Source of the DNA: Streptacidiphilus melanogenes
GTDB taxonomy: Bacteria; Actinomycetota; Actinomycetes; Streptomycetales; Streptomycetaceae
Assembly (NCBI RefSeq): GCF_000787835.1
Contig: NZ_BBPP01000018.1
Location: 34,195-98,194, forward strand
Reading direction: 5' to 3'
DNA length: 64,000 nt
In this document: positions 13,818 through 17,014 of the stretch, in pieces
Layout: every line of letters starts with the position of its first letter
Position numbering within the stretch: the first letter of the stretch is position 1
Notes under the pieces: model-generated
Database searches by the model: none
The model's input: only the letters and a program-made list of their open reading frames with translations
Told to the model about the DNA's origin: nothing
Position numbers and translations under genes: made by a program

Positions 13818-15974
13818 TCAGGCGCTGGTCAGCACCACGAGCTGCCGGGTTGCGCGGGTCATCGCCACGTAGCGGTCCACCGCCCCCTCGACGCCCTCGC
13901 CGAACGCGTCCGGGTCGACGAGCACGACCAGGTCGAACTCCAGCCCCTTCGACAGTTCCGGGGTGAGCGACCGCACCCGGTCGGTCTCGCGGAACCCCGG
14001 ATCGCCGATGACGCAGGCGACGCCCTCGCCGTGCGCCGCGAGCCACGCGTCGAGGATCGTGTCCCGCTCGGTGGCGGACCCGTGCACCACCGGGAGGCCA
14101 CTGCTGCGGATCGAGACGGGCACGTTCGCGTCCGGCAGCGCCGCCCGGACCACCGGCTCCGCCTCGGCCATGACCTCCTCCGGAGTACGGTAGTTGACGC
14201 TCAGTGAGGCGATCTCGATCCGGTCCAGACCGATCCGCTCGAGCCGCTCCCGCCACGACTCGGTGAACCCGTGACGGGCCTGCGCGCGGTCGCCGACGAC
14301 GGTGAGGCTGCGGGACGGGCAGCGCTGCAGCAGCATCTGCCACTCGGCGTCCGTCAGCTCCTGGGCCTCGTCGACGACGATGTGCGCGAACGGGCCCTCC
14401 AGCCGGTCCGGGCCGGCGGTCGGCAGGGCGTTCCCGTCGATCAGACTGTCCTGGAGGTCGCGGCCGTGCAGCATGGTCACCGCGCCCTCGCCGTCGTCGG
14501 CGGCGAGCACGTCCTTGATGACGTCGGACATCCGCGCGCGCTCGGCGCCGACGGCCGCGTCGTGACGGCGCTTGCGCCGCTCCGCCTCCGGGTCGCCGAG
14601 CCGTCGCCGGGCCGCGTCCAGCAACGGCAGGTCGGACACCGTCCAGGCCTGGGCGTCCTCGCGCTGGAGCAGCCGGACCTCGTCGCGGCCGAGCCAGGAC
14701 GCGCAGTGTCGCAGATAGGCGGGCACCGTCCACAGGTCGCCGACCAGGTCGGTCGGCTCCAGCAGCGGCCAGGCGCGGTGGAGGGCGGTGACCAGCTCCT
14801 CGTCCAGCTGCAGCGAGCGGCGGAACATCTCGGGGGTGATCCCGCCGTCCTCGTCCAGGCCGAGCCGGTCCATCAGGATCGCGACCAGCTCCTCCCAGAT
14901 CTGCTCGCGCGCCTCGTTGTGGGGCGTGCCGGGGCTCGGCGCGGCGAAGGCGTCGGCCCAGTCGTCGGCGGTCAGCCGGACGTCGGCCCAGTCGGTGGAG
15001 ACGGTCATGCCCTTGGTCGGCGGCTCCTCGTAGATGCCGACGGCCCTGTCGACCGCCTGCACCATGCCGACGGAGGACTTGAGACGGGCCACCTCGGGGT
15101 CGGCCTCGGGCCGGGCGGCGGCGCCCTCGGCGACGAGGTCGCGCACGGTGCAGGTCTGCACGCCCTCCTCGCCCAGGCTGGGGAGCACGTCGGAGACGTA
15201 GTTCAGGTAGGGCTGGTGCGGACCGACGAACAGCACGCCGCCGCGACGGTGGCCGAGGCGCGGGTCGGAGTAGAGGAGGTAGGCGGAGCGGTGCAGGGCG
15301 ACGACGGTCTTGCCGGTGCCCGGCCCGCCGTCGACGACGAGCGCGCCGCGGGAGCCCGCCCGGATGATCGCGTCCTGGTCGGCCTGGATGGTCGCGAGCA
15401 CGTCGCGCATCTTCGGCGAGCGGTTGCCGCCCAGGCTGGCGATGAAGGCGGACTGGTCGTCGAGTGCGGCGCGTCCCTCCAGGCCCTCGGCGGTGAACAC
15501 CTCGTCCCAGTAGTCGGTGATCCGGCCCCGGGCCCAGCGGTAGCGGCGGCGGCTGGTCAGCCCCATCGGGTTGGCGTGGGTCGCGGCGAAGAACGGCTCG
15601 GCGGCCGGGGAGCGCCAGTCGAGCAGCAGGCGGCGGCCGCCCGCGTCGGTGAGTCCGAGCCGCCCGATGTAGACGGGCTCGCCGTCCTCGGCGCTGACGA
15701 CGTGTCCGAGGCAGAGGTCCAGGCCGAAGCGGCGCAGCGCGCGCAGGCGGCCGGTCAGCCGGTGGACCTCCGCGTCCCGGTCCATGGCCGCCCGGCCGGC
15801 GCCGCCGGGTGCCTTCAGCGCGGCGTCGAGACGGTCGGACACATCGGCAGTCGCCAGTTCGAGACTCTCCGCGATCGCGGTGAAGTGCTTTTCGTCGGCG
15901 CCGATCAGCGCCGGGTCGGCCTTGGGGGAGAGGCGGTCGGAGAGGGCGAAAGCGCTGGTGCTGAGGGGTTCCAT
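13818..15974 (-). CDS. helR: HelD-type RNA polymerase-recycling ATPase HelR
   Basis: A 718-residue superfamily-1 (UvrD/Rep-like) ATPase of the HelD class. An N-terminal coiled-coil region (about 1-110) precedes Walker A GGPGTGKTVVALHRSAYLL (about residue 215). Walker B-like VVDEAQELTDAEWQML and a late VNYRTPEEV helicase motif follow. HelD proteins pull stalled core polymerase off DNA. The HelR branch, described in Streptomyces, displaces rifamycins from RNA polymerase and gives tolerance. Assignment to HelR rather than generic HelD rests on the N-terminal sequence style and on the rifamycin-associated-element-like repeat in the promoter. The ATG at 15974 has a GGGAG site. Upstream in-frame codons fall inside the promoter repeat. 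Confidence 0.87.
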   Translation of the reverse strand: MEPLSTSAFALSDRLSPKADPALIGADEKHFTAIAESLELATADVSDRLDAALKAPGGAGRAAMDRDAEVHRLTGRLRALRRFGLDLCLGHVVSAEDGEPVYIGRLGLTDAGGRRLLLDWRSPAAEPFFAATHANPMGLTSRRRYRWARGRITDYWDEVFTAEGLEGRAALDDQSAFIASLGGNRSPKMRDVLATIQADQDAIIRAGSRGALVVDGGPGTGKTVVALHRSAYLLYSDPRLGHRRGGVLFVGPHQPYLNYVSDVLPSLGEEGVQTCTVRDLVAEGAAARPEADPEVARLKSSVGMVQAVDRAVGIYEEPPTKGMTVSTDWADVRLTADDWADAFAAPSPGTPHNEAREQIWEELVAILMDRLGLDEDGGITPEMFRRSLQLDEELVTALHRAWPLLEPTDLVGDLWTVPAYLRHCASWLGRDEVRLLQREDAQAWTVSDLPLLDAARRRLGDPEAERRKRRHDAAVGAERARMSDVIKDVLAADDGEGAVTMLHGRDLQDSLIDGNALPTAGPDRLEGPFAHIVVDEAQELTDAEWQMLLQRCPSRSLTVVGDRAQARHGFTESWRERLERIGLDRIEIASLSVNYRTPEEVMAEAEPVVRAALPDANVPVSIRSSGLPVVHGSATERDTILDAWLAAHGEGVACVIGDPGFRETDRVRSLTPELSKGLEFDLVVLVDPDAFGEGVEGAVDRYVAMTRATRQLVVLTSA

Positions 15975-16012
15975 GTCTCCCGTTTCGGCAGGTTTTCTGG
16001 CCTGGGCCGTCG

Positions 16013-16049
16013 ATTGTGCGGCACCACCAGGGCCTTGCCGCAAGGCCCC
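16013..16049 (-). promoter_or_regulatory. helR promoter with rifamycin-associated-element-like inverted repeat
   Basis: Bases 16030-16049 read GGGGCCTTGCGGCAAGGCCC on the minus strand, a near-perfect inverted repeat very close to the published rifamycin-associated element (core TTGCGGCAAGGCCC identical as I remember it). The repeat overlaps a possible -35, TTGCGG (16043-16038). CACAAT (16018-16013) would be the -10, with a 19-base spacer. It ends 55 bases before the helR start codon. Such elements are known to mark rifamycin-inducible genes in actinomycetes. Confidence 0.8.
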
Positions 16050-16105
16050 CCATGCGCTATAGGTTGTAAGTGGCGGGGAGTGGGCGTCGACCTACTCCTC
16101 TTTTT

Positions 16106-17014
16106 TCATGCCTCCATCCGCCCCACCCGCTGGAGCAGTTGCTCGCGGGTGATCGGGGCGTGGGTCGTCGACGGCACGGTACAGGCGTGCGCCCCTGCGA
16201 CGGCACCGTGGTGCGCGGCGCGCAGGGCCGGCTCGCCGGACAGCCACGCGTACAGGAACCCCGCGGCGAAGGCGTCGCCCGCGCCGTTGGAGTCGACGAC
16301 CGGGGCGGGCGGGGCGACCGCCTCGACGTGGTGGAGGGAGCCGTCCGCCAACAGGTGGGCGCCGTCCGCGCCGGCGGTCGCGACGACGACGGACGCACGG
16401 CCCCGCTCCGCGATGCGGCGCAGCACGGCCTCCGGGTCCGGCAGCCGGGCCGAGGAGAGGAACACGACATCGCTCGTGTAGGCGAAGGGCTCGTGGTACG
16501 GGTTGACCCCGTCCCAGTCGTGGAGGTCGGTCGAGAGCGTGACCCCGCACTCCCGCAGCAGGGGCAGGGCGAACGCGCACGGATGGGTGAGGGAGACGTG
16601 TGCGTGACGGCTCGCGGTGGCGAGTTCGCGGACGACGGGCTCCGGCAGACGGTCCTCCGGCGCGGAGCGGGTGTCGTCGTACAGCGAGAGGCGGCGCCCC
16701 AGCGGGTCGACGAGGTTCACCGCCCGTTTGGTGCCCGCGGGTTGGGGGATCGCGGTGAGCGGCACCCCGAAGTCCGCGTGCAGGGCTCGGACCAGGGCGC
16801 CCTCGGGGTCGTCCCCCAGCAGGTCGAGGTGGTGCACGCGTAGTCCCAGGGCATGTAGCCCGAGGGCGAGGAAGTCGCCGGTCTGTCCGGCCCTGGTCCG
16901 TATGCCGGGGCGGATCATGTAGCTGTCGGCGAGCGGCAGGGGGAGCTCGGGGACGTGGACGACGGTGTCCACCCCGGCCCCGCCCAGCACCAGCACGTCG
17001 GTCTCGGGGCTCAT
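16106..17014 (-). CDS. PfkB-family carbohydrate/nucleoside kinase
   Basis: A 302-residue ribokinase-family (PfkB) kinase of normal length. The C-terminal signature VVDSNGAGDAFAAGFLYAW carries the anion hole and catalytic aspartate, and the N-terminal GGAGVDTVVHVPELPLP is the sugar-binding lid start. It would phosphorylate a sugar or nucleoside with ATP in the cytoplasm. The substrate is not predictable. The ATG at 17014 has a GGAGG-type site, while the frame remains open upstream without family similarity. It is divergent from the hydrolase gene at 17280. Confidence 0.9.
   Translation of the reverse strand: MSPETDVLVLGGAGVDTVVHVPELPLPLADSYMIRPGIRTRAGQTGDFLALGLHALGLRVHHLDLLGDDPEGALVRALHADFGVPLTAIPQPAGTKRAVNLVDPLGRRLSLYDDTRSAPEDRLPEPVVRELATASRHAHVSLTHPCAFALPLLRECGVTLSTDLHDWDGVNPYHEPFAYTSDVVFLSSARLPDPEAVLRRIAERGRASVVVATAGADGAHLLADGSLHHVEAVAPPAPVVDSNGAGDAFAAGFLYAWLSGEPALRAAHHGAVAGAHACTVPSTTHAPITREQLLQRVGRMEA

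Follow-up and report, generated by a model that had tools for sequence, protein, structure and literature searches.

Results

The helR locus

The window, the whole stretch of 64,000 nucleotides analysed here, comes from Streptacidiphilus melanogenes and carries on its minus strand a helR gene preceded by a rifamycin-associated element (RAE), with promoter-like sequences on both flanks of the element and a predicted terminator upstream. The features of the locus are:

13818..15974, minus strand: helR, RNA polymerase recycling/rescue ATPase, 718 aa, assigned by profile, structure match, motifs and tree
16013..16018, minus strand: sense -10, CACAAT, exactly 19 nt from the sense -35; predicted start ~16006
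16030..16049, minus strand: RAE, palindrome GGGGCCTTGCGGCAAGGCCC, 20 bp
16038..16043, minus strand: sense -35, TTGCGG, inside the RAE
16035..16040, plus strand: antisense -35, TTGCCG, overlapping the sense -35
16060..16065, plus strand: antisense -10, TAGGTT, 19 nt from the antisense -35; predicted start ~16072
16075..16108, plus strand: predicted intrinsic terminator, GGGGAGTGGG-CGTCGA-CCTACTCCTC then TTTTTT, -17.1 kcal/mol

The helR reading frame starts at the ATG at 15974, with GGGAG ahead of it, and stops at 13818 (minus strand). Its 718-aa product scores 1259.5 bits against the NCBIfam model NF041254 (motor_HelR; cut-off 750) and stays below the respective cut-offs of the HelD_MYCSM, HelD_BACSU and HelR_2 models. 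The nearest solved structure is that of the M. smegmatis HelD on RNA polymerase (PDB 6yxu/6yys, E=1e-103), to which the clamp-arm insert can be aligned; the protein displays the motifs DWRSP at 119, GGPGTGKT at 216 and VVDEAQ at 533, and lacks the class III insertion. A tree built from 73 proteins places it in a clade of 51 rows, 46 of which are labelled RAE-linked; these labels were assigned automatically, and a few 'noRAE' rows inside the clade are possibly mislabelled. The nearest paralog from its own genome (L035) belongs to a separate clade of 7, none with an RAE. A HelD paralog also lies just outside the window, ~16 kb off (G000:C90:30194-32395), with 37% identity to the HelR protein and no RAE. 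The model score and the grouping with RAE-linked HelRs bear out the earlier note, which had called the product a HelR-type ATPase and had named a position in the non-HelR HelD branch as evidence to the contrary. Judged by its sequence, the protein is a true HelR, an actinobacterial class II HelD; the published action of HelR is to free RNA polymerase both from DNA and from rifamycin.

The rifamycin-associated element and its copies in the genome

The RAE ahead of helR is a 19-bp palindrome that overlaps the -35 of the helR promoter. Its match to the founding RAE sequences (PNAS 2014, Mol Cell 2022) was judged through their description in PMC10719064 and through the common regulon; the RAE-like repeat reported in the earlier note indeed runs from 16049 to 16030 on the minus strand, and related sites have the same regulon genes downstream. 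The chance expectation for a 19-mer with up to three mismatches is 0.07 per window. The 8.77-Mb genome contains two perfect copies; all remaining matches have three mismatches and are equally numerous with a reversed-pattern control. Among 298 Streptomycetaceae genomes, 235 hold a copy with at most one mismatch, while the reversed pattern is found in few.

The genome-wide comparison of RAE copies, proposed in the earlier note, thus yields one further perfect copy:

G000:C105:204040-204058 (locus L004, 1501-1519), on another contig: second perfect RAE, directly ahead of a Rox-like FAD monooxygenase gene

The promoter at this second site reads TTGCGG-N19-CAGACT and is of the CANNNT type. The monooxygenase is Rox-like only, by homology: it reaches 446 bits against the 800-bit cut-off of the NCBIfam rifampin-monooxygenase model (rif_monoox), with a sequence that is possibly cut at the locus end, and NF005303 is the sole model whose cut-off it exceeds. 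Arr and Rph homologs were not found in the same genome, in a search that is weak because it was run without a positive control genome. The claim that no modifying enzyme lies near helR, so that protection would act at the target, stands for the neighborhood of the gene and fails at the scale of the genome: the second perfect RAE ahead of the Rox-like gene suggests that target protection by HelR is probably accompanied by drug modification encoded elsewhere. This resembles S. venezuelae, where a search for the RAE gave rox and helR (PMC10719064), and where a rox-type gene elsewhere in the genome likewise stands under the same element as helR.

RAE sites across the actinomycetes

A total of 101 Streptomycetaceae RAE sites, gathered by palindrome or by HelR proteins, were sorted by the downstream gene, giving 45 helR, 34 rox, 17 rgt and 5 rph homologs. 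At 50 sites from other actinomycete families these kinds of gene recur, joined by arr. Together these form a set of 151 sites, which omits a few palindrome matches lacking such a gene in the stored DNA and whose counts are not independent trials, as the sites are kin by descent. HelR loci fetched by protein alone have an RAE in 20 of 29 cases. The element is thus common to helR and to homologs of rifamycin-modifying genes, and the present locus is a further case of the published RAE-helR arrangement.

Single RAE sites precede genes of other kinds: a DrrA-type ABC ATPase (L181, 386-1312), a DHA2-like MFS exporter in Actinoplanes aureus (L201, 229-1797) and an F420-dependent PPOX oxidoreductase in Micromonospora sicca (L273, 3425-3826). 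At another locus (L184, ~1486) helR has decayed to its start and end pieces, and the RAE is retained.

The outer GGG/CCC of the palindrome is intact in 19 of the 20 protein-selected sites, though a -35 has no need of these bases; this favors an operator bound by a dimer. The center of the element differs at L311, L312, L314 and L328 (CTTGCCACAAG, CTTGCGTCAAG) with the outer GGG/CCC constant, and the operator is better written GGGnCTTG-N3-CAAGnCCC.

Promoter-like elements on both flanks of the RAE

The earlier note had described the -35 TTGCGG with CACAAT 19 bases away. This N19 spacing is exact; the putative antisense half of the promoter and the predicted terminator had been missed. Across the 151 sites the sense side presents CANNNT 19 nt from TTGCSG in 139, and at other spacings in 0-1; the -11 A and the -7 T are each found in 150. 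The combination of this -35 and -10 with a 19-nt spacer is a poor fit to consensus. The antisense side mirrors this arrangement, with TANNNT 19 nt from TTGCSG in 145/151 sites and at spacings of 14-18 and 20-22 nt in 0-2, and its -10 (TANNTT) is nearer to consensus than that of the sense side. The -10 flanks were absent from the search pattern used to gather the sites, and both are present in all 20 of the RAE-bearing HelR loci chosen by protein. Beyond the sense -10, the leader (15975-16006, minus strand) is conserved across gene families as CG.CGGCC..gGCC..aacctgCGG and contains a small inverted repeat.

The full two-sided pattern, scanned against 84,980 species genomes, returned at least 118 stretches; among the matches listed, all are from actinomycetes by record title, and 110 of the 113 readable sites precede helR, rox, rgt, rph or arr homologs. 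This association, the HelR score far over the cut-off and the placement of the closest paralog from the same genome in a clade free of RAEs make it highly improbable that we are dealing with an ordinary HelD gene and a repeat unrelated to rifamycin, a reading for which the presence of several HelD paralogs per streptomycete could be adduced.

A predicted antisense terminator upstream of the RAE

On the antisense strand, the hairpin and T-run past the -10 overlap the stop codon of the upstream kinase gene. The implied antisense RNA extends from ~16072 to ~16108, about 35 nt. A simple terminator finder applied to the Streptomycetaceae sites reports 41/101 in the antisense reading and 6/101 in the sense reading, compared with 10.7% of shuffles; before rgt the antisense figure is 2/17. 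Past the antisense -10, 68 of 149 regions contain a perfect stem of 6 bp or longer (10.6% of shuffles), with 51 different left-arm sequences among the 68 hairpin sites, and the 9 nt following the stem include five or more T in 39/68 in the antisense reading versus 2/68 in the sense reading. The mean folding z is -2.0 in the antisense hairpin region and about -0.1 further upstream. A clear antisense terminator is present in only about half of the sites. An Rfam search of the promoter region gave no match.

Two other roles for this region were considered and set aside. A promoter for a divergent upstream gene is rejected at this locus, where the kinase gene is co-directional with helR; with the terminator placed at the stop codon of that gene, the antisense arm would drive no gene here. 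An RNA hairpin working in the sense leader is disfavored by the absence of the T-run in the sense reading.

The exact N19 -10 elements on both flanks and the hairpins upstream suggest that the RAE is the common -35 of two divergent, back-to-back promoters, whose upstream member probably gives rise to a short terminated transcript, about 35 nt long. The conserved upstream block might instead belong to a sense promoter, form a structured leader or offer an additional binding site, with only the sense promoter at work. Mapping in M. smegmatis placed a further sense promoter (P1) ~20 bp upstream of the RAE (PMC10719064), and there the region may serve otherwise; the proportion of sites devoid of a clear antisense terminator agrees with such a role. 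The mirror-image TANNNT at exactly N19 from TTGC and the confinement of the T-run to the antisense reading argue against it, as does the position of the TATA block, 12-17 nt from the RAE, which is too near for the -10 of a P1 starting ~20 bp upstream; we therefore consider this explanation quite unlikely.

Discussion

Rifamycin sensing through the RAE has been called unsolved (PMC12802891, PMC10719064). HelD, Rox and Arr are induced by rifampicin in M. smegmatis (PMC6529629), and deletion of half of the RAE abolishes the induction of helD in mycobacteria (PMC10719064). Our analysis suggests a model for this control in which the RAE palindrome would consist of the overlapping -35 elements of a promoter pair, with helR transcribed from the sense arm, and in which the two promoters, sharing the element, would be mutually exclusive. 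Without rifamycin, the sense arm, with its weak CACAAT -10, would run low, while the antisense arm, with the better TANNTT -10, would fire and give the ~35-nt RNA ending at its own terminator. Rifamycin would tip the balance to helR, and the added HelR would pull the rifamycin-stalled polymerase off the DNA and eject the drug. The switch would most likely be a putative dimeric DNA-binding regulator on GGGnCTTG-N3-CAAGnCCC, centered near -33 of both promoters. As a whole, this account of a back-to-back promoter pair whose balance rifamycin shifts towards helR in this strain, probably via a dimeric regulator, has in our estimation about an even chance of being correct.

The RNA polymerase, which is itself the target of rifamycin, could also be the sensor: the overlapping promoters would compete, the rifamycin-bound polymerase would affect the busier antisense arm more, and a regulator would be unneeded. 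Precedent exists in B. subtilis, where rifampicin is sensed, with no regulator, through a sense and an antisense promoter of which the antisense one is the stronger (PMC12802891), and the antisense -10 of the RAE, being closer to consensus, fits such an imbalance. The B. subtilis promoters are, however, convergent and spaced for two polymerases, and induction is lost once the gap is so short that the polymerases exclude each other (PMC12802891), whereas those of the RAE diverge from overlapping -35 elements, such that a polymerase stalled on the antisense arm should block the sense arm. The conserved outer GGG/CCC would also be left unexplained, and we hold sensing by the polymerase to be rather unlikely. 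A further proposal takes the RAE for a symmetric bidirectional promoter with an always-on, self-terminated antisense arm in competition, where either polymerase competition or the short RNA would sense rifamycin without a dedicated drug-binding regulator; this too we regard as unlikely.

Both the HelR-class protein and the 19-bp palindrome over the -35 of the proximal promoter are shared with the RAE-controlled helR/helD genes of S. venezuelae (SVEN_6029), M. abscessus (MAB_3189c) and M. smegmatis (MSMEG_2174). In the published accounts considered here, the RAE palindrome covers a single sense -35 and another sense promoter lies farther upstream, whereas we predict a mirror-image antisense promoter and terminator. 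The dual-promoter alarm of B. subtilis helD likewise places a sense and an antisense promoter ahead of a HelD gene, with the better core elements on the antisense side, but its promoters are convergent and non-overlapping, its HelD is of class I and it has no RAE, while the pair described here is divergent, shares its -35 and sits on a palindrome. A convergent pair of the B. subtilis type (~39 bp apart) was rejected for our locus, since both -10 elements face away from the RAE.

CTTG...CAAG half-sites are a feature of HspR/HAIR, and 19-nt spacers of MerR promoters. The RAE is like the former in its half-sites and like the latter in its spacer; it differs in operator spacing and position, being centered near -33 and not within the spacer. 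Among the papers covered by a literature search, none described an RAE promoter of the divergent or antisense kind. The two-sided architecture of the RAE may be new, although the founding studies (PNAS 2014, Mol Cell 2022) may already have noticed it.

As a pattern for finding rifamycin-defence genes, the full 53-bp signature is sharper than the palindrome by itself. Single candidates for new genes of this kind emerged from RAE sites: an MFS exporter, a DrrA-type ABC exporter and an F420-dependent PPOX-family oxidoreductase. For the control of helR and its companions, the two-sided, exactly spaced promoter and its predicted terminated antisense RNA mean that mutations in single elements can separate a regulator acting on the palindrome from the polymerase acting as the sensor of rifamycin.
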